Below are positions 19,840-39,410 of a stretch of DNA of 39,736 bases, piece after piece. This stretch comes from Deltaproteobacteria bacterium (lineage in GTDB: Bacteria; Desulfobacterota; Desulfuromonadia; Geobacterales; DSM-12255). Made by a program: the position numbers and the translations under genes. The stretch lies in NCBI GenBank assembly GCA_021849045.1, contig JAJZTK010000023.1, positions 1-39,736 of the forward strand, read 5' to 3'. The notes below the pieces were generated by a model. It searched no databases, was not told the DNA's origin, and saw only the letters and a list, made by a program, of their open reading frames with translations. Every line of letters starts with the position of its first letter. The stretch's first letter is position 1.

Positions 19840-19949
19840 AATGCCCTTTATCAATATAACCAGCCGTCAGTCTGTGTCACTACCAGTACCACGTCCACGC
19901 AACCCCCAACGCCACAAATAACAATGTTTTAGCATACAATCTTGTTTCT

Positions 19950-20030: not shown

Positions 20031-20219
20031 ATTTACTGAAATAACAGGTCATCACACTCTCAGCCAGCGTTTCAGGGTGGCGTAGGCAGTCGGTCATGCG
20101 TTATTCATTTGGACGTTACACTCCACTCCATCCGCTTGGCATCAATACAATAATTTCATTATTTGATAAAAGATCTGGCCAGGAATGATCGGATTTAGAA
20201 TTTAATAAAACCCGGGTTT

Positions 20220-20493: not shown

Positions 20494-20509
20494 TGGCATA
20501 CCAAATGCT
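20494..20509 (+). promoter_or_regulatory. Sigma-54 (-24/-12) promoter of the bss operon
   Basis: TGGCATACCAAATGCT has GG and GC at the canonical spacing. Predicted start is near 20520, giving a leader of about 45 bases with GAGGAG before the bssD ATG. The extended sequence GTTTGGCA-N7-TGCTTT recurs at the DUF1302 operon promoter (31122-31142), and a sigma-54 activator gene is divergent, which supports the call. Confidence 0.7.
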
Positions 20510-20565: not shown

Positions 20566-21618
20566 ATGATCACTCCCCTTATTACAGAAATTCAGAGATT
20601 CAGCTTGCAGGATGGACCCGGAATAAGAACAACCATCTTTGTCAAGGGATGCCCTCTGCATTGTCCGTGGTGTCATAATCCCGAAAATATCAACATGAAG
20701 CGTGAGTTTTATTTTCACGCAAACAAGTGCACAGCATGTGGAAAATGCAGTGATAATTGTCAATCCAACAACTACAGACATTCCCAGGCCATGAATCAGA
20801 GTGAACCTGTCAGTACAGATCGAAGTGAGTGTACTCTGTGCCTGGAGTGTGTGTCATCATGCCGGTTTGGTGCACGTGAAGCAGTAGGTAAATCGATAGA
20901 TCTGAGCAGTATCGTAGAGGAAGCGGCATCAGACAGGATGTTCTATGCTAATAGCGGGGGCGGGGTCACGATAAGCGGTGGCGAGCCGCTCATGTATCCT
21001 GACTTTACCCTTGAATTGGCTCGCATTTTAAATGTCCGAGAAAACATCAACGTGGCAATTGAAACATGCCTTTCTGCAAAGTGGGACAGTATTGAGCCGC
21101 TATTGGAATATGTCGACCTATTCATCGTCGATATCAAGTCGCTGGATCCGGCCAAATACAAGCACGCAATCGGCGGCTCGCTACGGAGAGTCCTGGCAAA
21201 TCTGGAACGGCTCATACAGTCCAAAGCAGCAGTACGTATCCATCTGCCAATCATACCGGGCTTCAATGACACCCCCTACGATTTCGAGTCATACGCGAAG
21301 TATCTGGGACGATTTGCCAGTCATCTGACCGGGGTCGACCTGCTCCCCTATCACTCATATGCAACGGGCAAATATACTCAATTGGGGCGTCGCTACAGCT
21401 TCCTGGGAACCCCTGATCTTCCCAGCCGTCAGGTTATCCCCCTTACCAATTCCCTCAGACAGAGAGGTATTCGCGAGGTTACCATCGGCGGCATGGTTGG
21501 AACCGTTTCTCAAACAGACACGTTGAACGTCGAAGAGGTCTCGAAACCCGTCCGTGAAATTTTGCCACCCCCGGCGAGCCTGTTACGACGGAAGGGGGTG
21601 ATCGCGACTCGGCGGTAA
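20566..21618 (+). CDS. bssD: Glycyl-radical enzyme activase, BssD type (radical SAM)
   Basis: This activase uses S-adenosylmethionine and a reduced [4Fe-4S] cluster to abstract a hydrogen from the catalytic glycine of the large subunit. Near the N-terminus is CX3CX2C (Cys29, 33, 36). Then come two ferredoxin-type clusters CX2CX2CX3C (Cys55-65 and Cys89-99), the insert that marks BssD-type and related activases. The SAM-contact loop GGGVTISGGEPLMYPDF follows. Length 350 fits the family. Start ATG 20566 has GAGGAG ahead of it. It is first in the bssDCABEF order, 60 bases before bssC. Its codons look more A/T-rich than those of bssA. Confidence 0.93.
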   Translation: MITPLITEIQRFSLQDGPGIRTTIFVKGCPLHCPWCHNPENINMKREFYFHANKCTACGKCSDNCQSNNYRHSQAMNQSEPVSTDRSECTLCLECVSSCRFGAREAVGKSIDLSSIVEEAASDRMFYANSGGGVTISGGEPLMYPDFTLELARILNVRENINVAIETCLSAKWDSIEPLLEYVDLFIVDIKSLDPAKYKHAIGGSLRRVLANLERLIQSKAAVRIHLPIIPGFNDTPYDFESYAKYLGRFASHLTGVDLLPYHSYATGKYTQLGRRYSFLGTPDLPSRQVIPLTNSLRQRGIREVTIGGMVGTVSQTDTLNVEEVSKPVREILPPPASLLRRKGVIATRR

Positions 21619-21678: not shown

Positions 21679-21855
21679 ATGGCCACATGTAAAGATTGCT
21701 CATTCTATTTTGCGGTTCCTGAAAATGCAGGTGATTACAAGCCCGGAAAAGGTGATTGCGTTACCCAGAAGGAAGATGCCAAGGGGAAGTACTGGCTTTC
21801 CAAACCGACCCTGAATGTCACCCCTTCGTGCCCGACGTTCAAGAAGTCCAAATAA
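21679..21855 (+). CDS. bssC: Benzylsuccinate synthase small subunit gamma (BssC-like)
   Basis: A 58-residue protein with four cysteines (4, 7, 27, 51) of the CxxC...C...C type that binds a high-potential-like [4Fe-4S] cluster in BssC and BssB. In characterised benzylsuccinate synthases this subunit is bound tightly to the catalytic subunit and stabilises it. ATG 21679 follows AAAGGAG. The gene sits between the activase and the catalytic subunit, as in other bss operons, and 19 bases separate its stop from bssA. The family assignment rests on position, size and cysteines. Confidence 0.85.
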   Translation: MATCKDCSFYFAVPENAGDYKPGKGDCVTQKEDAKGKYWLSKPTLNVTPSCPTFKKSK

Positions 21856-21874: not shown

Positions 21875-24463
21875 ATGGCGACGGTAGCTCAATCGATTAA
21901 GTACAGAAACAAGGTCGTTGATTTCCCGCTGGAAAATCCGGAGGAGCTGAACGTTCCGGATGAGATGCTGCACGAAAACCTCTGCAAGCCGACCACGGAG
22001 AGAACAAAGAGACTCAAGGCGAGGTGCCGCTGGAAGCATGCCTCTGCCGGTGAATTCATCGACAAGGAAGTGCGGGCCGGCATCGAAAGGATGCGCCTGG
22101 TTACCGAATCCCACAAGGCCACGGCCGGCAAGCCGGAAGTAATCCGCCGGGCGCTGGGGCTGGCTCATCTTCTCGACAACTCTACCCTGGTGCTCCAGGA
22201 CGACGAATTGATCATCGGCTACCATGCGGAAGATCCGGAAATGTTTCCGCTCTATCCTGAACTTGCCTACATGGCGGTGCAGGACTACCTGATGACCGAT
22301 TACTGCCCGCAGCCCAAGGAAGAGGCCCAGGAAATCCTCAACTACTGGAAACCGTTCAGTATCCAGGCCAAGTGCGAGCCCTACTTCGATCCGATAGACC
22401 TCACCCGGATGTACCAGGTCAGCTCCATGGAAGGCCCCATGTTCGCCTCCGGCTACAACAGCATCGTGCCACCCTACGAGACGGTGCTGGAAGACGGCCT
22501 CTTGAAGCGGATTGAAATGGCCAGGGAAAAGCTTGTACATGCCCAGGCCGAGATGGAAAAGACCCCCTGGGATGCCACCAAGCAGCTTGCCTGGATTCCC
22601 AAGATCGACCTCTGGAAGGCGATGATCATTGCCGATGAAGCGGTCATCAACTGGGCCCGCCGTCACGGCCGGCTGGCCAAGATTGTGGCGGAAAACTTCG
22701 AAACGAATTCCGCACGCAAGGAAGAACTGCTGGAGATCTCCGATATCTGCCATCGCGTCCCCGCCGAGCCGTGCAAGGGGATCAAGGACGCCTTCCAGTC
22801 CAAGTGGTTCGTCTTCCTGATCTGCCACGCGCTCGACCGCTATGCCAGCGGCTTTGCCCAGAAAGAGGATGAACTGCTGGAGCCGTACTACAACGCGAGC
22901 GTCAGGGACAAGTCCTTCCAGCCCATGACCCACAAGGATGTCGTCGAACTGGTGGAGTGCGAACGGCTCAAAATTTCCGAGCACGGCGCCGGCAAGTCCC
23001 GCGCCTACCGGGAAATCTTCCCTGGTTCCAACGACCTGTTCATCCTTACCGTGGGAGGCACCAAACCCGGCTATGTCGATGCCTGCAGCGACATGACCGA
23101 CGCCATCCTGGAGGCAGCCCGCAATATCCGCACCACCGAGCCGTCCCTGGTCTTCAGATGGGATCCGGTGGGCCGGGTCAAAACCAAGCGGCTGGTGTTC
23201 GAGTGCATCCGGGACGGCCTCGGCTATCCCTCCATCATGCACAACCGGATCGGCGTCGACCAGATGAAGTTCTTCAGCAAGTTCAGCCTGAACAACAACG
23301 GTGTCACCGATGACGAGGCACACCGCTGGGCCAACGTGCTCTGCATGTCGCCGGGGGTCTGCGGCAGGAGAAAGACGCAGAAGACGAGATCCGAAGGGGG
23401 GAGCGCAATGTTCCCGGCCAAACTGCTGGAGATCGCCCTCAACGACGGGTACGACTGGTCCTACTCAGACATGCAGCTCGGTCCCAAGACCGGCAAGGCC
23501 TCGGAATTCAAGACGTTCGAGGACCTGGTGGAAGCGTTCAGGAAACAGTACGCCTACGTCTGCAGTCTGGTCATCCGTGCCAAGGACGTCATGCGCCATT
23601 TCGAGTGCCGGGTAATGCAGATGCCCTTTGTCTCCAGCATCGACGACGGCTGCATGGAGCTGGGGATCGACTCGGTCGAGCTCTCGGAGCAGCCCAACGG
23701 CTGGCACAACCCGATCACCACGGTCGTGGCCGCCAACTCTCTGGTCGCCATCAAGAAGCTGATCTACGACGAGAAGAAATACACCATGCAGCAGCTCCTG
23801 GACGCCCTCCATGCAAACTGGGAAGGACATGAGGCGATGCGCCAGGAGTTCCTCAATGCACCCAAGTGGGGCAACGATGATCCCTATGCCGACCCCATCA
23901 TCCAGGATTTCTATGAGAACATCCTCGGGGGGGAACTGGCCAAGGTCACCAACTTCTCCGGCGGGCCGGTCCTTCCGGTAGGCCAGGCCGTCGGCCTCTA
24001 CATGGAAGTCGGCACCCGCACCGGCCCCACCCCGGACGGACGTTTTGGCGGCGATGCGGCTGACGACGGCGGCATCTCACCCTACATGGGGTCAGACAAG
24101 AAAGGACCTACCGCGGTGCTGAAGTCGGTGGCCAAGGTCCAGAAGAACCAGAAGACCAACCTGCTCAACCAGCGGCTCAACGTGCCGATGATGCGCAGTG
24201 TCCATGGGTTCGACATCTGGAAATCCTACATGGACACCTGGGAGCAGCTTCATATCGCCCATGTGCAGTTCAACTGCGTGAGCACCGCCGAGATGAAGGC
24301 CGCCCAGAAAGAGCCGGAAAAGCATCAGGACCTCATCGTCAGGGTTTCGGGATTCAGCGCCCGTTTCGTGGATATCCCGACCTATGGTCAGAACACCATT
24401 ATCGCCAGGAACGAGCAGCACTTCGGGGCCGATGATTACGAATTCCTGAACTCTCCGCTCTAA
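21875..24463 (+). CDS. bssA: Benzylsuccinate synthase-type glycyl-radical catalytic subunit alpha
   Basis: The catalytic subunit that adds the methyl carbon of an aromatic substrate (toluene in classical BssA) to fumarate, giving a benzylsuccinate. The 862 residues show the thiyl-radical cysteine Cys490 in LCMSPGVCGRRKTQKTR and the glycyl-radical Gly826 in RVSGFSARFVDIPTYGQN. Their spacing of 336 equals that of Thauera aromatica BssA (Cys493/Gly829, from memory). The frame is open from 21815, but ATG 21875 (MATVAQSIKYRN) follows AAGGGAG and gives the family length. A 16-bp hairpin separates it from bssB. BssA is favoured over AssA or NmsA by the active-site motifs, but a hydroxylated substrate such as p-cresol cannot be excluded. 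Extremely oxygen-sensitive by nature of the enzyme class. Confidence 0.92.
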   Translation: MATVAQSIKYRNKVVDFPLENPEELNVPDEMLHENLCKPTTERTKRLKARCRWKHASAGEFIDKEVRAGIERMRLVTESHKATAGKPEVIRRALGLAHLLDNSTLVLQDDELIIGYHAEDPEMFPLYPELAYMAVQDYLMTDYCPQPKEEAQEILNYWKPFSIQAKCEPYFDPIDLTRMYQVSSMEGPMFASGYNSIVPPYETVLEDGLLKRIEMAREKLVHAQAEMEKTPWDATKQLAWIPKIDLWKAMIIADEAVINWARRHGRLAKIVAENFETNSARKEELLEISDICHRVPAEPCKGIKDAFQSKWFVFLICHALDRYASGFAQKEDELLEPYYNASVRDKSFQPMTHKDVVELVECERLKISEHGAGKSRAYREIFPGSNDLFILTVGGTKPGYVDACSDMTDAILEAARNIRTTEPSLVFRWDPVGRVKTKRLVFECIRDGLGYPSIMHNRIGVDQMKFFSKFSLNNNGVTDDEAHRWANVLCMSPGVCGRRKTQKTRSEGGSAMFPAKLLEIALNDGYDWSYSDMQLGPKTGKASEFKTFEDLVEAFRKQYAYVCSLVIRAKDVMRHFECRVMQMPFVSSIDDGCMELGIDSVELSEQPNGWHNPITTVVAANSLVAIKKLIYDEKKYTMQQLLDALHANWEGHEAMRQEFLNAPKWGNDDPYADPIIQDFYENILGGELAKVTNFSGGPVLPVGQAVGLYMEVGTRTGPTPDGRFGGDAADDGGISPYMGSDKKGPTAVLKSVAKVQKNQKTNLLNQRLNVPMMRSVHGFDIWKSYMDTWEQLHIAHVQFNCVSTAEMKAAQKEPEKHQDLIVRVSGFSARFVDIPTYGQNTIIARNEQHFGADDYEFLNSPL

Positions 24464-24539: not shown

Positions 24540-24779
24540 ATGTCAGCTACCGCACAAAACAGCAGTCCGAACATGATGATGCATGAAGAGACAGGCACCG
24601 GCAAGCCGTGTATCACCTGCAAATGGCAGATAGCCGACCCCACCAATCCGGTCAAGGGACAGTGCACGGTGAACCGCACCCAGATGGGCGGGGTGTGGAA
24701 ACGCTGGGTGAGCGACGTCTACAATAAGACCTGCGGCAAACATGAGGAAGGAAAGCTGAGCTTCCGGGAGCATGTCTAA
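24540..24779 (+). CDS. bssB: Benzylsuccinate synthase small subunit beta (BssB-like)
   Basis: A 79-residue protein with CITCKW near residue 21, then C in KGQCTVNRT and C in NKTCGKH: four cysteines for an Fe-S cluster as in BssB. It follows bssA, the order seen in known bss operons. In characterised enzymes the beta subunit regulates access to the active site. ATG 24540 has AGGAG upstream; the open frame begins earlier, at 24507, but inside the hairpin arm. Confidence 0.85.
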   Translation: MSATAQNSSPNMMMHEETGTGKPCITCKWQIADPTNPVKGQCTVNRTQMGGVWKRWVSDVYNKTCGKHEEGKLSFREHV

Positions 24780-27611: not shown

Positions 27612-27842
27612 ATGCACTCGAAGGGGATCGAAAGAGTGCTGACGACCGGCAGGGTTCTGGAAGAGTGCCGAAACCCGAAGCGGCCGACCAGCTATCTTGT
27701 GTATGGCGAATACTGCGGGACAATATTCCATGTGGTATGCTCAAAAGGTACGGAACACCGGATGGTAGTGCTGTTTGCGTATCAACCCACACTACCCGTC
27801 TGGGCAAGCCCGACACGGAGAAACGCATTCGTTGCGGAGTAA
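27612..27842 (+). pseudogene. DUF4258-like small protein, probably truncated or frameshifted
   Basis: The 76-residue frame resembles the toxin-like DUF4258 family (HSKGIERVLTTGRVLEEC, SYLVYGE, IFHVVCSKG, VVLFAYQPTLPVW) but lacks the usual first strand and the HAxxR segment. An in-frame stop (27600-27602) lies just upstream. Codons before it in another frame read IKTVLVRHNNALE, which would supply that missing part. So the gene may have lost its start by a frameshift near 27620. No partner antitoxin (YgiT type) is visible. No good ribosome site precedes ATG 27612. Confidence 0.4.
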
Positions 27843-27870
27843 GCCGCGCGATCCAGATACCGGAGGCACC

Positions 27871-29334
27871 ATGACAGCAAAGTGGGACATGTCAGCCGAT
27901 GTTGTCGTGATTGGGTACGGCGGTGCCGGGGCGGCGGCCGCCATTACCGCCCACGACACTGGGGCCGAAGTACTGGTACTCGAAAGCACCGCTCATGGTG
28001 GGGGGAATACCCTCGTTTCGTTCGGCGGATTCATGCATCCCGAGGATTCTGTCCAGGCGCTCCGCTATCTTACCGCCCTCTTCGACTATTCCCGTTCGGA
28101 AAGAGATGATCGACTTCTTAGCATCTTTGTCGAGGAATCGGCGAAGAGTATGGATTGGTTGAAAAGCCTGCAGCCGGATGTCTCTTTCCAGACCTATGGC
28201 GGCGCAAGCTACCCCCAGCTAGCCGGTGCCAGCGCAATAAGGAAATATGTCGTCAGTGGCGCACGCAAGGGGGCGACGGCGTTTGCGCAGAACCTGTGGC
28301 AGCTGCTCTCCCATGCGGTGGAGCACGAACGGAAGATACCTGTCCTGCCCCTTACCCCGGCGCAACGACTTGTGACCGGCAGTACAGGTGAGGTCATCGG
28401 CGTCATTGCCCAGTCCCGGGGACAGGAGATCTCGATTCAGGCCAGACAAGGGGTTATCCTTACAACCGGTGGATATGAATTCGACCAGTCGACCCTGCTA
28501 AACAGCGTCAAGGGGAATCCAGTCTATTCACTGGGGCATCCCGGCAATCGGGGTGATGGTGTCCGGATGGCCCAGAAGGTGGGAGCCGGGTTATGGCATA
28601 TGAACGGCGTATCCTGCGCCTTTGGCATCAAGGTCCCCGAGTTTGAATCGGCCCTGTTGATAGCTGCCGGAGCAGCCGGACAGATCCTGGTCGACAGATC
28701 CGGCAAACGATTTGTCAACGAGGGAGCGATTGAACGGCATGCCGGCTTGCTGGCCGTAGATTTATTCGACATTCAATCTTTGAGCTACCCGCGCATCCCC
28801 TGTTATCTGATTTTCGACGAAGCCACTCGAAAGCGGGGTCCTGTATCCCGAACAACCGGTCTGGGCTCTGCCGGTATCCGACATGCGTGGAGCAGGGACA
28901 ACAGCACTGAGATCAAGAACGGCTGGATACTCAAAGATGAAACCCTGGCCGGACTGGCGCGTAAACTGGGGATGGATGCAAAGGTGCTGCAGCATACCAT
29001 CGACCTTTGGAACACAACGGTTCGGACCGGAATGGATGCACTGTACGGTCGTGAATTACCGGATGACCTCCGCACGGCAACGATCGAAACCGGGCCGTTC
29101 CATGCCCTGGAAATCTATCCCTGCCTGCTCAACACGCAAGGAGGACCCAAACGGAACGAATGGGCAGAAGTAACCGATCCCTTTGGTGTACCGATCCCAG
29201 GGCTTTACAGCGCCGGCGAACTTGGTTCGATCTGGGGGTTGATCTATCAAGGCGGGGGGAATATTGCCGAATGCCTCGCTTTTGGCAGAATTGCCGGAAG
29301 AAACGCGGGGAACCGCCCCGATACTAACGGTTGA
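27871..29334 (+). CDS. FAD-dependent oxidoreductase of the fumarate reductase/ketosteroid dehydrogenase family
   Basis: This 487-residue flavoprotein binds FAD through GYGGAG (15-20) and Glu38 in LVLES. It has the GGGNTLVSFGGF loop, a FVNEGA segment, and the C-terminal family block PIPGLYSAGELGSIWG followed by GGGNIAECLAFGRIAG. The QGGPKRNEWAEV stretch corresponds to the TMGGL region of flavocytochrome fumarate reductases. No signal peptide or haem motif, so it is cytoplasmic with an unknown electron partner. ATG 27871 follows GGAGG. Placement after the bss genes suggests a link to fumarate/succinate or to a succinate-type intermediate, but the substrate cannot be assigned. The canonical benzylsuccinyl-CoA dehydrogenase BbsG is an acyl-CoA dehydrogenase, a different family. 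Confidence 0.8.
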   Translation: MTAKWDMSADVVVIGYGGAGAAAAITAHDTGAEVLVLESTAHGGGNTLVSFGGFMHPEDSVQALRYLTALFDYSRSERDDRLLSIFVEESAKSMDWLKSLQPDVSFQTYGGASYPQLAGASAIRKYVVSGARKGATAFAQNLWQLLSHAVEHERKIPVLPLTPAQRLVTGSTGEVIGVIAQSRGQEISIQARQGVILTTGGYEFDQSTLLNSVKGNPVYSLGHPGNRGDGVRMAQKVGAGLWHMNGVSCAFGIKVPEFESALLIAAGAAGQILVDRSGKRFVNEGAIERHAGLLAVDLFDIQSLSYPRIPCYLIFDEATRKRGPVSRTTGLGSAGIRHAWSRDNSTEIKNGWILKDETLAGLARKLGMDAKVLQHTIDLWNTTVRTGMDALYGRELPDDLRTATIETGPFHALEIYPCLLNTQGGPKRNEWAEVTDPFGVPIPGLYSAGELGSIWGLIYQGGGNIAECLAFGRIAGRNAGNRPDTNG

Positions 29335-30189: not shown

Positions 30190-31124
30190 GTTCCAAGCCT
30201 CTACAGAAAGTCATCGCAACAGGTCCTGCATCAGGCCAGACTGATCTACGTGCATTAAAATACCACAATAGCAAGCAATTACAGTTAACAACCTCCACGC
30301 ATTGCCCCTCTCGCTGTTATCCAGTCAAGACAAACCTAGTTATTTTATCTTCACCAATCGCAACTACACCTTTCTCTGACCCAAATTGCCCAGTTGAATG
30401 AAATTTTGAGAAACCGCACAACCAGCTAATCTAAAGGTGTATTTTCGAAATATTTCGTAATTATCTAGCCAAATTGATAATTGTCGATGGTGAAGTCATT
30501 AATCGCAATCTTTTTTGATAAAAAGATAACATCGCAGCTTATAACTCTCATCCTCTTTAAGCAGCCCTTCATACAGAAACGGTTGAGCCGTTACGATACG
30601 ACGGCAAAATTCCCGAAATAATGGCGAACCTGATTCCTCCACCAAATATTCACCTTGATCTATTTCCTAAGCACAATCACCGCAAATCAGCCAATCAAGC
30701 ATATTTAAGCTAGTTACACTTATTAGATTTGCATTCTTTAACACCTGATCCTGAAATATCAAATCTCCAATTTTTTTATTATTTCATAAAAGAATAGAGT
30801 TTATCTGGACCTATTACTTAAATAATTAAACTTCAAGACCTCTACGGTAGCTGGTACGATAATATCTCCTGAATCCTCAAAAACGTTCCGCTCTTCGTGC
30901 AAAACATCAATATACTCAATCACTCACACGCGATATTAACTACATCTAACCAGCAAAGCGTCCCCCAACACCCCAATCCTGCCCACACAGAAAAACAACA
31001 TTCTGCTAGATCACCCAACAACGTTAAATGCCATAACTGTTTGTTTAGCATTGGTTTTTAACTTACAACACCATCCCCACCAGGCAATTACCGCATACAC
31101 TACACCATCATTACAAACAGCGTT
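30190..31124. other. Long A/T-rich intergenic region
   Basis: About 0.9 kb without a convincing gene on either strand. Visible items are a perfect palindrome CGAAATATTTCG (30446-30457), and ATTATTTCATAAAAGA (30778-30793), which matches 15 of 16 bases of a stretch upstream of bssD (20158-20173). ATTGGT and ACCAT half-sites (31050-31074) resemble the bss repeat at 20220 with a wider gap. The low GC compared with flanking genes may mark a junction of acquired DNA. Confidence 0.5.
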
Positions 31125-31140
31125 TGGCACAAGCCGTGCT
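31125..31140 (+). promoter_or_regulatory. Sigma-54 (-24/-12) promoter of the DUF1302-RND operon
   Basis: TGGCACAAGCCGTGCT has a perfect -24 half and TGCT at the correct -12 spacing. GTTTGGCA and TGCTTT are shared exactly with the bssD promoter. The predicted start near 31152 gives a leader of about 210 bases that contains a large inverted repeat. Confidence 0.7.
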
Positions 31141-31252
31141 TTATTGTCAGTATTGCATATCTGAAGCAACTTCAACTAAGCCCGCATTCCGTGCCCGTTC
31201 CGTCAGAGCGAGTTGATGATACGAACGAACTGGGTTGTACGTAGTGGTACTG

Positions 31253-31298
31253 CGATAAACGACATAACAACCAATCATACATACAGTGTCGTTTATCG
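31253..31298 (+). promoter_or_regulatory. 11-bp inverted repeat in the DUF1302 leader
   Basis: CGATAAACGAC (31253-31263) pairs perfectly with GTCGTTTATCG (31288-31298) across 24 bases. It lies between the sigma-54 element and the gene, followed by a GGAG-like stretch. It could be a leader hairpin controlling translation or stability, or an operator, for example for the IclR protein encoded downstream. Confidence 0.65.
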
Positions 31299-31362: not shown

Positions 31363-33066
31363 ATGGTGAAGAAATATACAATAAAGAATAAAAAGCATGG
31401 TCTGCGGCTCATCTGCCGGCAAAAGTGTCTGGCAGTGGCGCTGGTTGCAGCAATGAGTATATGCGGCAGTGTCGATGCGTTCGAGATCCCGACGGACAAC
31501 GAAGACGTCGTAATCCATTGGGACAACACCTTCCGCTACACCCTGGCCCAGCGCCTCAAAGGACAGAGCAAGGATATTACCGATAGCGTCAACCACGACG
31601 ACGGTGACCGCAACTTCGATGTGGGGATCGTCTCGAGCCGCCTGGACCTCCTGACCGAGGCGGATCTGGTCTACAAGAAGGATTTCGGCTTTCGCTTGAG
31701 CGGCGCCCTCTGGTACGACCCGATCTACAAGGCAAAGCTGGACAACAACTCTCCGCAGACCTCGAACCACTTTCAAAACGGCCAGCAGGCAATCGGCCTG
31801 AATCAGTACACCAAGCGGCGCTTTGCCGGGCCGGACGGCGAACTGCTGGACGCCTTCGTCTTTGGCAAACTGAATATCGGCGACGTCCCGATCAACGTCC
31901 GGGCCGGCCGGCACACCATCTACTGGGGCGAGGCGTTCTTCCCCGCTGCCGGTTCCAACGGCATCTCCTACGGCCAGTCGCCGATCGACATGGCCAAGGC
32001 GTTGGCCATGCCGGGCGTCGAGCTGAAGGAGATCTTCCGGCCGCTGAACCAGGTGTCGGTCCAGGTCCAGCCGACCAACGAGCTCACCATTGCCGGGCAG
32101 TACTACCTGGAATGGGAGTCGAACATCTTCCCGGAGACCGGGAGTTACCTGGGGATGGTGGACGGTTGGATGAACAGCGGCGAGGCCTTTCTCTTCCCGC
32201 CACCGCTGGCAGCGGCTCTGAACAACGGGGCCAACGGCGGCGATCACCGGCCAAGCGACATGCGCGACTGGGGGATCAAGGTGGCCTACAGCCCCGAGTG
32301 GCTGAACGGGACCCTGGGGTTCCACTATCGCAACTTCTCCGACAAGATGCCGCAGGTCCTGGGTGATGCCAGCGGCTATCACAATGACTACAAATCCAAC
32401 ATCAGTCTCTACGGGATCAGCTTTGCCAAGCAGATCCTGGGGGTCAGCGTCGGCTCCGAGCTCTCCTACCGCCGCAACATGCCGCTGACGAGCCAGTGGT
32501 TTGCCCCGGCCGGGGCGCGCGGCGACACCATGCACGCGGTGGTGAACTTCCTGACGCTGTTGCCCAAGACCCCGGTGTTCGATACCGGCTCCGCCATCCT
32601 GGAGTTTGCCTATGGCCGCTGGAACCGGGTCAGTGAAAACGGCCAGTTCTTCACCGGCCGCGCCGGTACCGGCAGCTTCGGCCAGCCCGTCAACCTCGGC
32701 GTTGGCCATGCCACCCGGGACAACTCCACGGTAACGGTCAACCTGGTGCCGGAATGGAAGCAGGTCCTGCCGGGGGTGGACATGGCCATGCCGCTCAACT
32801 TCTCCATGGGGATGCACGGCAATGCGGCGACCCTCACCGGCGGCACCGAGGGGACCGGCAGCTACAGTGCCGGGCTCTCGTTCGACGTGTTCGCCAAATA
32901 CAAGATCGACCTGACCTATGCCAGCTTCTTCGGCAAGGTTCGACCGGATGCGCAGGGCCAGATTGCACCGCCGGGTCTTGAAGGCGCGGGCCAGGGCGCA
33001 GCCGATGCCATTGCCCTGCTCAAGGACCGCGACCTCTTGTCCCTGACGTTGAAGGCCACATTCTGA
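31363..33066 (+). CDS. DUF1302 outer-membrane beta-barrel protein
   Basis: A 567-residue exported protein: basic N-terminus, hydrophobic core and a likely signal cleavage after VDA (about residue 39), then a mature chain rich in alternating aromatic/polar strands and Asn/Gly turns, ending in a barrel-type aromatic residue (LKATF). Family-typical parts are the start FEIPTDNEDVVIHWDNTFRY and the central FRPLNQVSVQVQPT. ATG 31363 follows GGAGGG. It is first of a four-gene set with DUF1329, YCF48 and RND proteins that recurs near genes for steroid or hydrocarbon use in other proteobacteria (from memory). It probably forms the outer-membrane route for a hydrophobic molecule. Confidence 0.85.
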   Translation: MVKKYTIKNKKHGLRLICRQKCLAVALVAAMSICGSVDAFEIPTDNEDVVIHWDNTFRYTLAQRLKGQSKDITDSVNHDDGDRNFDVGIVSSRLDLLTEADLVYKKDFGFRLSGALWYDPIYKAKLDNNSPQTSNHFQNGQQAIGLNQYTKRRFAGPDGELLDAFVFGKLNIGDVPINVRAGRHTIYWGEAFFPAAGSNGISYGQSPIDMAKALAMPGVELKEIFRPLNQVSVQVQPTNELTIAGQYYLEWESNIFPETGSYLGMVDGWMNSGEAFLFPPPLAAALNNGANGGDHRPSDMRDWGIKVAYSPEWLNGTLGFHYRNFSDKMPQVLGDASGYHNDYKSNISLYGISFAKQILGVSVGSELSYRRNMPLTSQWFAPAGARGDTMHAVVNFLTLLPKTPVFDTGSAILEFAYGRWNRVSENGQFFTGRAGTGSFGQPVNLGVGHATRDNSTVTVNLVPEWKQVLPGVDMAMPLNFSMGMHGNAATLTGGTEGTGSYSAGLSFDVFAKYKIDLTYASFFGKVRPDAQGQIAPPGLEGAGQGAADAIALLKDRDLLSLTLKATF

Positions 33067-33079
33067 TCATTTAGATCAG

Positions 33080-33222
33080 TTTCCGGACCGCAAAGGAGGG
33101 ATTTTTCGTCCTGGCGAGGAAATCAAGGGATTGCGCGGAGGCGTACTGCTGTACGCCGCACAAGCTATCCCGCAGATTGACACTGCCAGGGCGGAAAAGA
33201 ACCCTTTCCGGACGGAAACTAA
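33080..33222 (+). repeat. Long imperfect inverted repeat between DUF1302 and DUF1329 genes
   Basis: Outer arms TTTCCGGAC.../...CCTTTCCGG and TTTTTCGTCCTGGC/GCCAGGGCGGAAAA frame a perfect inner hairpin GGCGTAC-TGCT-GTACGCC (33140-33157). The whole stretch would fold as one long stem. Its form suggests a dispersed intergenic repeat or an RNA processing element, not coding sequence. Confidence 0.65.
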
Positions 33223-33238
33223 GAAAAGGAGAAACGAT

Positions 33239-34594
33239 ATGTTGATACGGAACAGCATACTGGCAGGGTGTCTGACCCTGGCCAGCGCAGGACTGGCGAT
33301 GGGAGCGGTATCCGCGGACAAGGCGGCACAGCTCGGCAAGAACCTGACCCTGGTCGGGGCCGAGAAGGCCGGCAACAAGGAAGGGACGATTCCCGAGTAT
33401 ACCGGCGGACTCACCACCGCTCCCGCCGGCTTCAAGAAGGGGAGCGGCTGGCGGCCCGACCCGTTCACCGGCGATAAACCGCAGTTCTCCATCAGTGCCA
33501 AGAACATGGCCCAGTACTCGGACAAGCTGTCCGAAGGGGTCAAGGCGATGTTGAAGAAGTACCCGGCCTACCGCCTCGAGGTCTACAAGACCCACCGATC
33601 GTCTGCCTTCCCCAAGTCCTTACTGGACAACACGGTCAAGCACGCCACCACGGCCAAGACCACCAACGGCGGCCTGACGTTTACCGGCGCCCATGCAGGC
33701 TTCCCCTTCCCGATACCGAGTGATGGCTTCGAGGCGATGTGGAACCACCTGACGCGTTACAACGGTCTGACCTATGATGTCCAATTCTCGTCATATACCG
33801 TGGATTCCAACGGTATTCCCACCATGCAATCGTCGGGCAATGTCATCGAGGAATACCCGTATTACGATCCGGCAAAACCCAGTGCCAAAGACTACTACAT
33901 GATCAGGTTCAACTACCAGGGGCCTGCCCGGCGGGTTGGCGAGGGGGCTTTGATCATCGACCCGATCGACCCGTACAATGAGAAGCGCAAGGCTTGGCAG
34001 TATCTCCCCGGCCAGCGGCGGACGAAGCTGGCGCCGGACCTCTCCTTTGACACCCCCAGTTCGCTTACCGGCGGAGCGTATGTGTGGGACGACATCTTCC
34101 TGTTCAGCGGTTCCATGGAACGCTACAACTTCAAGCTCGTCGGCAAAAAAGAGATGTATGTGCCGTATAACAACTACAAGATGATTTATAGCAGCAAACA
34201 TGAGGACGTATTGTCTAAGAATTTCCCGAACCCCTCAATAGTTCGCTGGGAACTGCACCGGGTCTGGGTGGTGGAAGGGACATTGAAGCCCGGCAAGCGC
34301 CACCTCTATAGCAAGCGGGTCTACTACCTGGACGAAGACAGCTGGACTGCCAACCTGAGCGACGAATACGATGGCCGCGGGCAGCTCTACCGGGTTGGGA
34401 TGACCTATATCACCCCAAGCTACGATGCACTGAGCCCGTTTGGGGACACCTATTCCGTTACCGACCTGGTTACCAATTCGTATGCCCTGAACTGTTTGCT
34501 GGTACCGGGCAAAAAGGGGATCCTCTACCCCGGCAAGCCGTTCCCGGCAAGCTATTGGACGGCTGACGCCCTGGCAGGCATGGGTGTTCGTTAA
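33239..34594 (+). CDS. DUF1329 periplasmic protein (LolA/LolB-like)
   Basis: A 451-residue secreted protein with a short signal peptide (about 1-23, MLIRNSILAG...LAMGA). The DUF1329 family is related in fold to the lipoprotein carriers LolA/LolB and normally carries RND-type export genes beside it. Typical stretches are YLPGQRRTKLAPDLSFDTP, then the WDDIFLFSG and RWELHRVWVVEGTLKPGKRH blocks. An LAGC at residues 8-11 is too near the start to be a convincing lipobox. ATG 33239 follows AAAAGGAG; the frame is open from 33131 through the hairpin element. It likely shuttles a hydrophobic molecule across the periplasm between the RND pump and the DUF1302 barrel. Confidence 0.85.
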   Translation: MLIRNSILAGCLTLASAGLAMGAVSADKAAQLGKNLTLVGAEKAGNKEGTIPEYTGGLTTAPAGFKKGSGWRPDPFTGDKPQFSISAKNMAQYSDKLSEGVKAMLKKYPAYRLEVYKTHRSSAFPKSLLDNTVKHATTAKTTNGGLTFTGAHAGFPFPIPSDGFEAMWNHLTRYNGLTYDVQFSSYTVDSNGIPTMQSSGNVIEEYPYYDPAKPSAKDYYMIRFNYQGPARRVGEGALIIDPIDPYNEKRKAWQYLPGQRRTKLAPDLSFDTPSSLTGGAYVWDDIFLFSGSMERYNFKLVGKKEMYVPYNNYKMIYSSKHEDVLSKNFPNPSIVRWELHRVWVVEGTLKPGKRHLYSKRVYYLDEDSWTANLSDEYDGRGQLYRVGMTYITPSYDALSPFGDTYSVTDLVTNSYALNCLLVPGKKGILYPGKPFPASYWTADALAGMGVR

Positions 34595-34604
34595 CGTATG
34601 ACGC

Positions 34605-34642
34605 AGTACGCTCCCTGCGGTTGCATCTGCAGGGAGCGTACT
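34605..34642 (+). repeat. Perfect 14-bp stem-loop between DUF1329 and YCF48 genes
   Basis: AGTACGCTCCCTGC (34605-34618) pairs with GCAGGGAGCGTACT (34629-34642) around 10 bases, 10 bases past the stop. No T run follows. It could be a weak terminator or an mRNA-stabilising element inside the operon. Confidence 0.8.
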
Positions 34643-34774
34643 CCCCTATCACACTATCTCTGCAGGTTATGAAAAGCAGCAGTGGCTACCTAGTGCAACT
34701 TTGAACACCATAGCGTCGCCAGTTTGAGGAAGATTCAAGTAGTTACGCATCATCAGTCACACCAGGGAGAAGAT

Positions 34775-35851
34775 ATGAAATCGAGAACTCTACTCATAGC
34801 ACTGATATCCATCGTCCTGCCCTTATCCATGGTCCTTGCCACGGTATCGTTCCAGGATGTGCTTGATACCCCGGCGGTCAAAAGCACGTTAGCCGCGAAG
34901 TCCCTACTGATAGGCGCCACTCTGGCCGGCAAGCGTATCGTGGGGGTCGGGCAGCGCGGCCACATCGTCTACTCGGATGACCAGGGGAAGAACTGGACCC
35001 AGGCAATAGTGCCGGTCAGCTCCGACCTCGTTGCCGTGCATTTCCCCACCCCCCAAAAGGGGTGGGCAGTAGGACACGACGGAGTGGTGTTGCATAGTGC
35101 CGACAGCGGCGCCACCTGGACCAGGCAGTTCGACGGCCGGGCCGCGGCCCAGACCCTGGTGAACAGCTACACGGGCAGTGCCCCACCTCCTGCCGACAAG
35201 GCGGGGACCGCCAATACGGCAATCCTGCCGGATGATATCAAAAAGATTGCGGATCAGGGTCCGGACAAGCCGTTTCTCGATGTCTGGTTCGAAAACGAAA
35301 CCACCGGTTTCATTGTCGGTGCCTTCAGCCTCATCTTCCGCACCGCCGATGGCGGTAAAAGCTGGACCCCTTGGTACGATAGGATCGATAACCCGAAACG
35401 CTTTCACCTGTACGCGATCCGCCCCGTAGGCGGAGAGCTGTTCCTCACCGCCGAGCAGGGAACAGTGTTCAAGCTCGACCCGAAAGGTGAGCGGTTCAAG
35501 GCAATCAAGACCCCGTATGTAGGCACGTTCTTCGGCATCACGGGCAAGCCCGGAGCCTTGGTCGCTTTTGGCATGCGAGGCAATGCATTTTGCAGCCGGG
35601 ACGGCGGAAACCGTTGGCAAAAAGTGGAAACGGGCGTAACCAGCGGCTTGATGGGTGGCGCCCTGACCGAGGATGGTCGGATCGTGCTGGTAAGCCAGGT
35701 GGGGCATGTGCTCGTAAGTGGCGACAACGGGGCGAGTTTCAGCCAGGTAAAGATAGATCAACCGACCCCTGCGGCCGGGGTTGCCTCTATTGGCGGAAAT
35801 ACCATGGCGCTGGTCGGCCAGCGTGGCGTGCAGGTGCAAGAGATCAAATAA
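34775..35851 (+). CDS. YCF48/BNR-repeat beta-propeller, exported
   Basis: The 358-residue protein starts with a signal or anchor helix (about 5-24) and then carries about six propeller blades, each ending in a BNR/Asp-box-like GxTW or related turn: SDDQGKNWTQ, SADSGATWTR, TADGGKSWTP, SRDGGNRWQK, SGDNGASFSQ. YCF48/HCF136-like propellers assist membrane complex assembly. In this operon type one always accompanies the RND protein, so it may assemble or gate the transporter from the periplasm. ATG 34775 follows GGGAGA; an upstream start at 34724 would precede the signal. Confidence 0.85.
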   Translation: MKSRTLLIALISIVLPLSMVLATVSFQDVLDTPAVKSTLAAKSLLIGATLAGKRIVGVGQRGHIVYSDDQGKNWTQAIVPVSSDLVAVHFPTPQKGWAVGHDGVVLHSADSGATWTRQFDGRAAAQTLVNSYTGSAPPPADKAGTANTAILPDDIKKIADQGPDKPFLDVWFENETTGFIVGAFSLIFRTADGGKSWTPWYDRIDNPKRFHLYAIRPVGGELFLTAEQGTVFKLDPKGERFKAIKTPYVGTFFGITGKPGALVAFGMRGNAFCSRDGGNRWQKVETGVTSGLMGGALTEDGRIVLVSQVGHVLVSGDNGASFSQVKIDQPTPAAGVASIGGNTMALVGQRGVQVQEIK

Positions 35852-35948
35852 TAACTACTCAGGCGTTGAGGTTGAACTGCTCTGAGCATCGGGTCTGACA
35901 ATCTTCAGCCTATCGGCCTGAAGCAGTTACACGACAGGGAGAACTGAA

Positions 35949-38423
35949 ATGGCAGTGGGATCTGGAAAAATGGATGAAATGCCGGTTGTAAAGGATATCA
36001 GGGAGTTCGACCACAACTCCGGCAATTGGCTGGAGCGACTGATCTTCAACAACCGCCCGGTCGTGATGGCCGTATGCGTCGTCGTCACCCTGGTGCTCGC
36101 CTTTCAGGCGACAAAGCTCGTGTTCAACGCCAGCTTCGAAAAAATGCTCCCCCAGAGCCACCCCTACATCAGGAACTACCTGGCGAACAAGCAGGATCTG
36201 AGGGGACTGGGGAACTCGATCCGGGTGGTGGTGGAGAACACCAAAGGGGACATCTTCGACCCTCAGTACCTGGATATCCTTCGCCAGATCAATGACGACC
36301 TGGTGCTCACCCCCGGTGTTGACCGCGCCTGGGTGAAGTCCATCTGGACCCCGGCGGTCCGCTGGAACGAGGTCACCGAGGAAGGTTTCCAAGGTGGTCC
36401 GGTCATGCCGGACAACTTCGACGGCTCGGCAGAGAAGGTGGCAAAGCTTCGACAGAACATCAGCCGGTCCGGCATAGTCGGGAGCCTTCTGGGGACGAAC
36501 TACAAATCGGCGATGGTCTTTGTCCCGCTTCTCGATACGGACACCACCACCGGGAAGCGTCTCGACTACAGTACCTTCTCCAAGCAGATCGAGAGCAATA
36601 TCCGGATGAAATATGAGACCATGGGGAAGGGTGAAATCAAGGTCCATATCATCGGCTTTGCCAAACTGGTAGGCGACCTGATCGACGGCCTGATGCAGGT
36701 CATGACCTACTTCGCCCTGGCCGCCCTCATCGCTGCCATCGTCATCTTCCTCTACACCCGCTGCATCCGGAGCACAGCCTTGGTGATCATCTGTTCGGTG
36801 GTGGCGGTCATCTGGCAACTGGGTGTCGTTACCACGCTGGGGTTCGAACTCGACCCCTACTCCATCCTGGTACCGTTTCTGGTCTTTGCCATCGGGGTCT
36901 CCCACGGCGTGCAAAAAATGAACGGCATCATGCAGGACGTCGGGCGTGGCACCCACAAACTGGTAGCGGCTCGCTACACCTTCCGCCGCCTCTTCCTGGC
37001 CGGTCTGACGGCCCTGTTGGCCGACGCGGTCGGCTTTGCCGTCCTGATGCTGATCGATATCCCGGTCATCAGGGACCTGGCGCTGACCGCCAGCATCGGG
37101 GTGGCAGGGCTCATCCTTACCAACCTGCTCCTGTTGCCGGTCTTTCTCTCCTACACCGGGGTAAGCCTCAAGGCGGCCAGTCGCACCCTGCAGGAAGAAG
37201 ACGACGAAAACACTGGCAAGGGAGCCGGTGCCATATGGGGCCTGTTGGACCACTTCACCGAAAAAAGGTGGGCGACCCGGGCGGTGGCGATCTCGGCGGT
37301 ACTGGCCGTGGCCGGTTTCATCGTCAGCCTCAACCTGAAGATCGGCGACCTGGACCCGGGTGCCCCGGAACTGCGCGCCAACTCACGCTATAACAAGGAC
37401 AATGCCTTTGTCACATCCAACTACTCGCTCTCCAGTGATCAGTTTGCCGTGATTCTGAAAACACCTAAAGAGGGTGCCATCAAGTACGAACCGCTCATCG
37501 CGGCCGACCAGCTCGCCTGGGCATTGCAGCAGGTTTCCGGCGTGCAGGCCACGGTCACCCTGGCCGACTCGATTCGCGTAGTAACGGCAGGCACGTATGA
37601 AGGCAGTCCCAAGTGGTATACCATCAACCGCAACCAGGATGTGCTCAACTATTGCGGTGGGCAGGCGTTCTCCGATAACCCGGATATCGCCAACAGCACG
37701 TTATCGGTCACGCCGGTGATCGCCTACCTGTCCGATCACAAGGCCGAGACACTGGCCCGGGTGCTGAAAGTTGCTGAAGAGTTTGTGAAGACGCACGCCA
37801 CCAAGGATCGGCAGTTCCTGCTGGCAGCGGGGAGTTCCGGGATCGAGGCGGCCACCAACATCGTGGTCAAGGCGGCGAACCGCACCATGCTCCTCTACGT
37901 GTACGGCGCGGTAATCATTCTCTGCTTCATTACCTTCCGCAGTTGGCGCGCTGTAGTTGTAGCGGTTCTCCCGCTTGCCCTGACCTCAATCCTGTGCGAA
38001 GCGCTGATGGTGGGCTTAGGAATCGGCGTCAAGGTCGCCACCCTCCCGGTGATTGCCCTGGGGGTAGGAATCGGGGTCGATTATGCACTGTATCTGCTGA
38101 GCATGCAGCTTACCTATCAGCGCCAGGGAATGCCGCTGGGCGAGGCGTACCAGAAGGCGGTCCAGTTTACCGGCAAGGTGGTTGGCCTGGTGGGGATCAC
38201 CCTGGCTGGCGGAGTCGTGACCTGGGCGTTCTCGCCGATCAAGTTCCAGGCAGACATGGGAATCCTGCTCACCTTCATGTTCCTCTGGAACATGTTCGGC
38301 GCACTCATCCTCATTCCCGCTCTCTCTCACTTCATGCTCAGCAATGTGACTGTAGCCGTTGAGGAGACCGTTGAAGATGAAATTGGCGCGGTAAATTGCC
38401 AGACCGTTCAAGTCCCTGAATAG
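35949..38423 (+). CDS. MMPL/RND-superfamily permease
   Basis: An 824-residue inner-membrane transporter of RND layout in two halves. TM1 (about 37-57) and a periplasmic loop precede TM2-6 (about 250-405). TM7 (about 445-465) and a second loop precede TM8-12 (about 645-805). The second half has the proton-relay motif GVGIGVDYALY (Asp711-Tyr712); the matching site in the first half reads FAIGVSHGVQ, with Ser-His instead of Asp-Tyr. No membrane-fusion protein gene is adjacent, unlike AcrAB-type pumps. It resembles the lipid/hopanoid (HpnN, MmpL) class. ATG 35949 has GGGAGA. Predicted to energise movement of a hydrophobic compound together with the DUF1329, DUF1302 and YCF48 proteins. Direction of transport is unknown. 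Confidence 0.88.
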   Translation: MAVGSGKMDEMPVVKDIREFDHNSGNWLERLIFNNRPVVMAVCVVVTLVLAFQATKLVFNASFEKMLPQSHPYIRNYLANKQDLRGLGNSIRVVVENTKGDIFDPQYLDILRQINDDLVLTPGVDRAWVKSIWTPAVRWNEVTEEGFQGGPVMPDNFDGSAEKVAKLRQNISRSGIVGSLLGTNYKSAMVFVPLLDTDTTTGKRLDYSTFSKQIESNIRMKYETMGKGEIKVHIIGFAKLVGDLIDGLMQVMTYFALAALIAAIVIFLYTRCIRSTALVIICSVVAVIWQLGVVTTLGFELDPYSILVPFLVFAIGVSHGVQKMNGIMQDVGRGTHKLVAARYTFRRLFLAGLTALLADAVGFAVLMLIDIPVIRDLALTASIGVAGLILTNLLLLPVFLSYTGVSLKAASRTLQEEDDENTGKGAGAIWGLLDHFTEKRWATRAVAISAVLAVAGFIVSLNLKIGDLDPGAPELRANSRYNKDNAFVTSNYSLSSDQFAVILKTPKEGAIKYEPLIAADQLAWALQQVSGVQATVTLADSIRVVTAGTYEGSPKWYTINRNQDVLNYCGGQAFSDNPDIANSTLSVTPVIAYLSDHKAETLARVLKVAEEFVKTHATKDRQFLLAAGSSGIEAATNIVVKAANRTMLLYVYGAVIILCFITFRSWRAVVVAVLPLALTSILCEALMVGLGIGVKVATLPVIALGVGIGVDYALYLLSMQLTYQRQGMPLGEAYQKAVQFTGKVVGLVGITLAGGVVTWAFSPIKFQADMGILLTFMFLWNMFGALILIPALSHFMLSNVTVAVEETVEDEIGAVNCQTVQVPE

Positions 38424-38606: not shown

Positions 38607-39410
38607 ATGAAGAAACAGAAATCCGCTTATATGATTCAGTCGGTAGCACACGCCTTTGACATTCTGGAACAATTCAGAGACAAAGTGGAGGAACTTGGCA
38701 TCACTGAATTGAGTAAGCGTCTGCGACTCAATAAAAACAGCGTATTCAGACTTCTTGCCACCTTGGAGTCCCGTAGTTTTATCGAACAGAACAAGGATAC
38801 GGGAAACTACCGACTTGGACCCAAGAATCTGCAACTCGCACAGACACTCATCAAACAGCTGAAGCTCCACCACCATTCGATGCCGGTACTGAAATCGTTG
38901 ACCGTTGATTGCAACGAAACCTGCTACGTGGCAGTGCTGAAAGGTTCGGACGTCGTCTACCTCGACACCGTTGAATCCACCCTTCCCGTTCGCATTGTTC
39001 CGAAGACAGGATTAATGCTCCCTGTCCATTGCACGGCAGCCGGCAAAGTGCTGCTTGCCGGTGCAATCGACAAAAAGCGGCAGATTTGTCCTCCGTTCAT
39101 GGAATTCAGGCAATATACGCCGAATACCATCACCGATCGAAGCGAGTTCGATAACCAACTGGAAACAATAGCCAGACAAGGGTATGCCCTGGAAGATGAA
39201 GAACTGGATCTGGGAGTGAGGGGTGTTGCCGCACCTATTCGTGATTATACCAAGTGCGTAGTTGGCGCAATAACCGTTTCCGGCCCTGCCATCCGATTCA
39301 GCGAAGCAAGAATGCTGAATGAACTGGTTCCGATGGCCCAGAAAGCCGCCGCTGAGATATCTCTGCGGATCGGCTATTATTTGTCAGCTGTTGTCGCAAG
39401 GAATACCTGA
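38607..39410 (+). CDS. IclR-family transcriptional regulator
   Basis: This 267-residue regulator has an N-terminal winged helix (about 5-70: SVAHAFDILEQF, LGITELSKRLRLNKNSVFRLLATLE) and a C-terminal IclR ligand-binding GAF-like domain (about 85-255: LPVHCTAAGKVLLA, YALEDEELDLGVRGVAAPI). Family members bind small acids or aromatics and often control nearby catabolic or transport operons. The frame is open from 38472 through the hairpin, but ATG 38607 gives the normal length; its ribosome site is weak (GTGAG). It could regulate the RND operon, where an inverted repeat at 31253-31298 is a possible target. Confidence 0.9.
   Translation: MKKQKSAYMIQSVAHAFDILEQFRDKVEELGITELSKRLRLNKNSVFRLLATLESRSFIEQNKDTGNYRLGPKNLQLAQTLIKQLKLHHHSMPVLKSLTVDCNETCYVAVLKGSDVVYLDTVESTLPVRIVPKTGLMLPVHCTAAGKVLLAGAIDKKRQICPPFMEFRQYTPNTITDRSEFDNQLETIARQGYALEDEELDLGVRGVAAPIRDYTKCVVGAITVSGPAIRFSEARMLNELVPMAQKAAAEISLRIGYYLSAVVARNT

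Follow-up and report, generated by a model that had tools for sequence, protein, structure and literature searches.

The ame Operon and Its Products

The DNA analyzed here, referred to below as the window, is a stretch of 39,736 nucleotides (contig JAJZTK010000023.1) from the 4.33-Mb draft genome of a Geobacter-like bacterium, and the system in question is a four-gene operon at 31363–38423, downstream of the genes for benzylsuccinate synthase (bss). The operon, on the forward strand, starts with an ameA-like gene (31363–33066), which encodes a DUF1302 outer-membrane β-barrel of 567 amino acids with a signal-like N-terminus (PF06980, E = 5.6e-109). It continues with an ameB-like gene (33239–34594) for a DUF1329 periplasmic protein of 451 amino acids with a predicted LolA fold (PF07044, E = 2.5e-130; LolA_like, 2.9e-7), an ameC-like gene (34775–35851) for a YCF48/PSII_BNR propeller of 358 amino acids, again with a signal-like N-terminus (PF14870, E = 1.1e-18; Ycf48 structures, E = 1e-14), and an ameD-like gene (35949–38423) for an HAE3/MMPL-type RND permease of 824 amino acids (PF03176, E = 7.6e-17). 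The profile matches placed all four genes, their coordinates and their domains where the initial annotation had put them, and the four-gene system is almost certainly a trans-envelope transporter of the AmeABCD type. The composition of the "candidate machine" for hydrocarbon or lipid trafficking proposed in that annotation was correct, but AmeABCD has already been named and deleted in Castellaniella defragrans (PMC6394551). The system as such is known, and the evidence for its co-regulation is the new contribution of this work.

The hydropathy scan gave 12 transmembrane segments in AmeD, in the RND layout 1+5+1+5, and a single N-terminal hydrophobic, signal-like segment in each of AmeA, AmeB and AmeC. 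The best NCBIfam match of AmeD is the HAE3 model TIGR00921, whose score of 127.8 bits is below the curated cut-off of 351.9 bits. Family searches found neither a membrane-fusion protein nor a TolC-type channel among the products of the ame operon, which confirms the missing fusion protein of the initial annotation. A tripartite HAE1 RND pump of the AcrAB-TolC type was therefore rejected, the outer-membrane part being, in addition, a porin-like barrel. The Lol lipoprotein-sorting system was also rejected because the inner-membrane partner is an RND permease and the ABC subunit (LolCDE) is absent from the operon.

The AlphaFold2 (AF2) model of AmeA forms a barrel over residues 43–567, with a predicted local distance difference test score (pLDDT) of 81.8. 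A sequence search gave nothing significant among solved structures for DUF1302, and structure comparison gave OprD/Occ porins (Z = 19) and the exporter AlgE (Z = 17) as the nearest structures. The AF2 model of AmeB, built from 45 sequences, has a pLDDT of 90.5, and its residues 159–449 match LolA-type proteins well above background. The closest is LolA3 of Porphyromonas gingivalis (9tp6, Z = 21.8 over 237 residues), followed by the DUF1329 crystal structure 4z48 (Z = 19.6), whereas ordinary LolA reaches a Z of about 8. Judged by its predicted structure, AmeB belongs to the LolA superfamily and has a LolA-type fold. The roles that had been proposed for the parts agree with these models: the fold of DUF1329 is of the LolA type, and DUF1302 forms a complete outer-membrane β-barrel.

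Two residue pairs of AmeD are invariant in 81 of 81 sequences, namely Ser318-His319 (motif AIGVSH), just after the fourth transmembrane segment, and Asp711-Tyr712 (motif GVDY), just after the tenth. One of the two search patterns used to collect these sequences contained HGVQKMN; however, 74 of the 81 sequences lack Val at position 321 and are thus not matched by it, and Ser318 lies outside the pattern. The invariance of Ser318-His319 is therefore not merely the result of selection by the search pattern, and this pair may take part in a proton relay.

The four-gene arrangement is not due to chance, because all 72 related loci whose fetched stretch contains the four genes keep the order A-B-C-D on one strand. 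These loci come from the best 80 of at least 583 AmeD relatives confirmed in the genome collection. In five of the remaining eight, the contig begins inside the cassette or the upstream genes are not seen in the fetched stretch; in the other three (L091, L093 and L103), A, C and D are present without DUF1329 between them. The genomes of these three loci carry 11 to 23 DUF1329 copies at other places.

Control Sequences Shared with the bss and bbs Operons

Upstream of ame, the window contains a complete benzylsuccinate synthase set, which consists of the forward-strand genes bssD for the activating radical SAM enzyme (20566–21618; TIGR04003, 409 bits, E = 1e-122), bssC (21679–21855; 4pkc_C, E = 6.5e-18), bssA for the alpha subunit (21875–24463; 1474 bits against 4pkc_A, the crystallized alpha chain of Thauera aromatica benzylsuccinate synthase) and bssB (24540–24779; 4pkf_B, E = 2.3e-30), together with an AAA+/VWA pair. 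These matches indicate that the bss genes of the window are genuine.

The best sigma-54-like site in the window is a −24/−12 promoter, TGGCACAAGCCGTGCT, at 31125–31140 on the forward strand, 238 bp before ameA. Farther upstream, at 30774–30830 on the same strand, lies a paired enhancer-like site, which consists of TTTTATTATTTCATAAAAGA and an inverted half-copy 46 bp downstream. The same arrangement precedes bss on the forward strand, where the paired site with TTTCATTATTTGATAAAAGA occupies 20154–20210 and a sigma-54 promoter occupies 20494–20509, 72 bp before bssD. The 20-bp sequences TTTCATTATTTGATAAAAGA and TTTTATTATTTCATAAAAGA agree in 18 of 20 positions, a value reached by none of 150 dinucleotide shuffles.

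The consensus of the 20-bp site, TTTYATTATTTSATAAAAGA, occurs exactly three times in the genome, before bss, before ame and before bbs on contig C210, and only one further genomic site is found at three mismatches. Contig C210 carries bbsEFGH, an electron-transfer flavoprotein, an Fe-S oxidoreductase and bbsABCD, the genes of benzylsuccinate β-oxidation; the BbsB thiolase scores above its equivalog cut-off (817.8 versus 750 bits), and the other bbs names are based on gene order and general family matches. The distance from the site to the promoter is 351 bp for ame, 340 bp for bss and 339 bp for bbs. Two further genomes were compared, one of the same genus that appears to be Geobacter argillaceus and a Geobacter daltonii-like genome. 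In G. argillaceus, at up to two mismatches, the site is found only before bss, bbs and ame, at 339–351 bp from the promoter, and the G. daltonii-like genome has a single occurrence, before bbs, with a distance of 340 bp. The spacing is thus 339–351 bp in seven of seven cases in the three genomes, and the inverted half-copy lies 46 bp downstream of each site, with 8 to 11 of its 11 bases matching. An enhancer-binding protein would be expected to use paired sites of this kind.

Over the 1.15 kb upstream of ame, the window and G. argillaceus share 85% identity. The two longest invariant runs of this region are one of 44 nt at the enhancer-like site (30772–30815) and one of 41 nt at the promoter (31110–31150), the latter length being reached by none of 5000 column shuffles. 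The sigma-54 scan was rejected as proof when taken alone, as eight sites scoring 18 or more are expected in the window by chance, and the case for the promoter is convincing only through its combination with the spacing, the conservation and the shared site. As a control of the scanner, its top site before bss in genome G022 is the promoter TGGCATGTCTTCTGCTAAATAGTCC of G. daltonii. The bss operon of G. daltonii is experimentally sigma-54 dependent, and this promoter was mapped there by rapid amplification of 5' cDNA ends (5'-RACE) (PMC11497800). The canonical XylR site, TTGATCAATTGATCAA, has no good match before ame.

The ame transporter very probably belongs to a toluene regulon with bss and bbs, because the paired site and a sigma-54 promoter at matching spacing also precede these two operons. 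The link to bss is accordingly stronger than the adjacency noted in the initial annotation, and its theme of hydrophobic compounds is borne out. The presumed regulator of bss, bbs and ame is encoded at 18091–19854 on the reverse strand, divergent from bss. It is a sigma-54-dependent activator of the XylR/DmpR/MopR type with XylR_N, V4R, AAA+ and Fis domains (PF06505, PF02830, PF00158), and it matches the CapR/DmpR structure 6iy8 with 496 bits.

A hairpin with a perfect 12-bp inverted repeat lies in the presumed 5' untranslated region upstream of ameA (31253–31298, forward strand), with a fold z of −3.9 in the window and −3.5 in G. argillaceus, where it is kept despite an insertion of more than 100 bp just upstream. 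No RNA family was found in the ame region with Rfam. The hairpin could act as an RNA element, or the IclR-family regulator encoded downstream could use it as an operator.

Relatives and Modularity of the System

The numbers of DUF1329 and AmeD matches differ within single genomes, being 11 and 5 in Pseudomonas izuensis (two of the five are adjacent halves of one gene), 17 and 8 in Pseudomonas alkylphenolica, and 23, some of them in tandem, and 1 in the 2.6-Mb betaproteobacterial metagenome-assembled genome that contains L103 (G446). A-B pairs without a close AmeD were found in three Geobacterales genomes. This surplus of DUF1329 and these pairs, together with the split loci of Pseudomonas putida described below, suggest that A-B pairs may share C-D pumps.

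The genome of the window has a second full ame copy (C201), at which the 20-bp site is absent and which lies beside a different set of thiolase and short-chain dehydrogenase/reductase genes and another sigma-54 activator. These differences suggest, without demonstrating it, that each paralogous ame operon has hydrophobic substrates of its own. At the end of contig C138 of the same genome (L028), a third DUF1302-DUF1329 copy is divided between two frames; either pseudogene formation or an error of assembly may be the cause.

The bss genes of the G. daltonii-like genome are directly followed on the same strand by ameABCD, with only one FAD-dependent gene in between. This gene (L036 12033–13094, reverse strand), between bssB and ameA, looks like a geranylgeranyl reductase by eye. 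The copy linked to bss in this genome groups, in the AmeD tree, with the other copy of the window genome and not with the window copy, so ame may have become linked to toluene genes on more than one occasion. The loci fetched did not include the sequence of C. defragrans. The tree contains the homologue from Thauera linaloolentis, a species of the genus to which the published closest relative belongs, and this homologue is 66% identical to the window protein.

Proposed Mechanism and Alternatives

The interpretation that we prefer, with a probability of about 60%, is that the operon encodes an AmeABCD-type transporter of the toluene regulon that protects the envelope by outward, carrier-mediated transport. 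Exposure to toluene, which we infer to be the effector of the DmpR/XylR-type activator, would make the activator work at the paired sites about 345 bp upstream and turn on the sigma-54 operons together, bss for toluene activation, bbs for the β-oxidation of benzylsuccinate and ame for transport. AmeD, a proton-driven RND permease, would remove a hydrophobic molecule from the inner membrane. The AmeC propeller would sit on the periplasmic part of AmeD, and the LolA-fold carrier AmeB would collect the cargo and ferry it across the periplasm to AmeA, from which outer-membrane barrel it would be released. The membrane would thereby be protected while the cell feeds on the solvent. The cargo would most simply be toluene dissolved in the membrane, or alternatively an envelope lipid; toluene itself is proposed tentatively, at somewhat less than even odds. 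We regard as doubtful the complete shuttle scheme, in which a proton-driven RND protein with the unusual intramembrane Ser-His/Asp-Tyr pair would pass free hydrocarbon to a soluble LolA-fold carrier and on to an outer-membrane barrel without a fusion protein across the periplasm, and in which a smaller number of C-D pumps may serve several A-B cassettes.

The outward direction is likely, because C. defragrans shows a tolerance phenotype and known RND proteins work as exporters. Deletion of the four genes in C. defragrans impaired growth on limonene and other non-functionalized monoterpenes, whereas growth on acetate and perillyl alcohol was unaffected (PMC6394551). When acetate was supplied as a cosubstrate, growth of the mutant was poor if limonene was high, and the mutant accumulated more Nile Red after treatment with carbonyl cyanide m-chlorophenylhydrazone (CCCP) (PMC6394551). 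Of the import, export and lipid options that the initial annotation placed side by side, export in the sense of tolerance is thus the only one with direct experimental support, and import and lipid transport are left standing as the less probable ones. The assignment of AmeC as the partner of AmeD comes from P. putida, in which contacts were predicted between the DUF1329 protein and the barrel and between the DUF1329 protein and the transporter, the strongest being that of PP_2018 with PP_2019 (PMC10866462).

Several observations weigh against outward transport of toluene as the function of the operon. In the papers found, there is no transport assay for toluene or for any Geobacter ame system. 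The real-time efflux of Nile Red was equal in the C. defragrans mutant and the wild type (PMC6394551). In P. putida, the DUF1302 and DUF1329 genes, together with those for a periplasmic protein and an efflux transporter, are reported to be required for growth on Tween 20, which could mean uptake (PMC10866462). AmeA resembles uptake (Occ) and export (AlgE) barrels alike; their scores are nearly equal, and its fold was discarded as a guide to the direction of transport. Genome G346 has a benzylsuccinate synthase (Bss), 73% identical, but no DUF1329 at all, and the ame system is therefore not obligatory for Bss. In the phylum-wide comparison of Bss with DUF1329, 3 of 395 genomes have Bss, which is too few to be informative.

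Instead of toluene, the AmeD-AmeB-AmeA route could carry a lipid, or a fatty acid in modified form, from the inner membrane to the outer one and so adapt the envelope to solvents, as HpnN does with hopanoids, and toluene would then never be the cargo. The occurrence of HpnN among the closest solved relatives of AmeD is consistent with such a function, as are the nearest folds of AmeB, which are carriers of the LolA type, named for lipoprotein sorting. Shuttling volatile toluene would also be energetically awkward, since it could re-enter freely. However, no lipid-synthesis gene is present in the ame operon, the defect of the C. defragrans mutants concerned apolar hydrocarbons and not oxygenated terpenoids, and Nile Red accumulation was altered by the deletion (PMC6394551). 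We consider this alternative unlikely.

Less probable still is substrate acquisition, in which AmeA would admit a hydrophobic substrate, AmeB would ferry it and AmeD would accept or process it, so that the system would feed catabolism instead of protecting the cell. The Tween 20 requirement mentioned above would fit this function, as would the poorer growth on phenanthrene of a mutant in DUF1329, which is cited in PMC13101534, and the Occ-type channels as the best structural matches of AmeA. The neighbors of ame can be read in the same way. At 35 loci, genes for CoA-ligase, thiolase and enoyl-CoA hydratase recur; the set is mixed, no family dominates, and the counts are given without a background frequency. 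Toluene, however, crosses membranes unaided, and characterized RND permeases export. In the test with acetate and high limonene, the defect of C. defragrans was one of tolerance despite the other carbon source (PMC6394551). Outer-membrane remodeling or the production of vesicles ("nanopods") instead of small-molecule transport is very improbable. DUF1329 has been tied to nanopods in Delftia, from which the highly expressed cluster of the benzene degrader ORM2a took its name, but the ORM2a protein is only 21% identical to the Delftia protein (PMC13101534). A cassette of four genes that is conserved and has an RND permease of its own suits transport better.

The Ame family is widespread, with at least 583 relatives, recurs beside hydrocarbon and lipid catabolism, and has a mechanism that is not settled. 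Here, common control sequences at three operons tie ame to a defined pathway of anaerobic toluene degradation, which gives the clear prediction of one activator for three operons and a setting in which one substrate suffices to probe both cargo and direction. The conserved Ser-His/Asp-Tyr pair of AmeD makes proton coupling accessible to point mutation.

Other Genes of the Window

Directly downstream of ameD, an IclR-family regulator is encoded at 38607–39410 on the forward strand (PF01614, PF09339), and it also adjoins ameD in G. argillaceus (L032). Between the bss genes and ame, an FAD-binding protein resembling flavocytochrome c and fumarate reductase is encoded at 27775–29334. It may function in toluene metabolism, for example in fumarate supply or succinate turnover, because a homologue adjoins bbs in the G. 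daltonii-like genome (L134 18529–19998). At 6453–8000, a protein with DUF4062, HATPase_c_4 and a Fic-like C-terminal part lies beside a UvrD-PDDEXK helicase-nuclease and a RadC-like gene, and this neighborhood might be a defense or mobile island.

Comparison with Known Systems

The closest known counterpart is AmeABCD of C. defragrans 65Phen, in which ameA (DUF1302), ameB (DUF1329, of 451 amino acids there as well), ameC (COG4447/YCF48) and ameD (HAE3 RND) follow in the same order inside a hydrocarbon-degradation set and are expressed with it (PMC6394551). The set there is a monoterpene island, whereas here it is a toluene pathway of fumarate addition with a predicted sigma-54/DmpR-type regulon. 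The tolerance phenotype belongs to C. defragrans, and the system of the window is known from its sequence.

The four families have also been predicted in an aromatic-catabolism regulon of Betaproteobacteria, in COG4447-COG1033-PF07044-DUF1302 operons controlled by AphS, AphT or AphR, of which AphR belongs to the XylR/DmpR group (PMC6449761). Those operons differ from ame in their phenol, biphenyl and toluene pathways and in their binding motifs (PMC6449761). In the methanogenic benzene degrader ORM2a, the "Nanopod" cluster combines a porin-like protein, DUF1329, a YCF48-related protein and an MMPL transporter and is highly expressed with an anaerobic aromatic pathway; it differs in the route of activation to which it is attached and in two genes that lie between the parts, one of them for a universal stress protein (PMC13101534). 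In P. putida, PP_0765 (DUF1302) and PP_0766 (DUF1329) resemble the ame parts and show fitness correlated with that of PP_2018 (a periplasmic protein) and PP_2019 (an efflux transporter), all four being reported as needed for growth on Tween 20 by random barcode transposon sequencing (PMC10866462). This set differs from ame in its two separate loci and in its substrate (PMC10866462).

The hopanoid transporter HpnN (PDB 6wu0, 5khn) is, like AmeD, an HAE3/MMPL-type RND permease, and it differs in that no dedicated carrier or barrel is co-transcribed with it (PMC6394551). In the profile alignment, the corresponding Asp of HpnN lies in the first half (GLGVDFA) and the second half has the non-acidic GVGVAFK, whereas AmeD has Ser-His in the first half and Asp-Tyr in the second, so that AmeD looks like the mirror image of HpnN in this arrangement. 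In its place beside toluene catabolism, the ame operon recalls TtgDEF of P. putida DOT-T1E, which is a solvent exporter co-regulated with that catabolism and, unlike ame, a tripartite pump of the HAE1 type that includes a membrane-fusion protein and a TolC-type channel.

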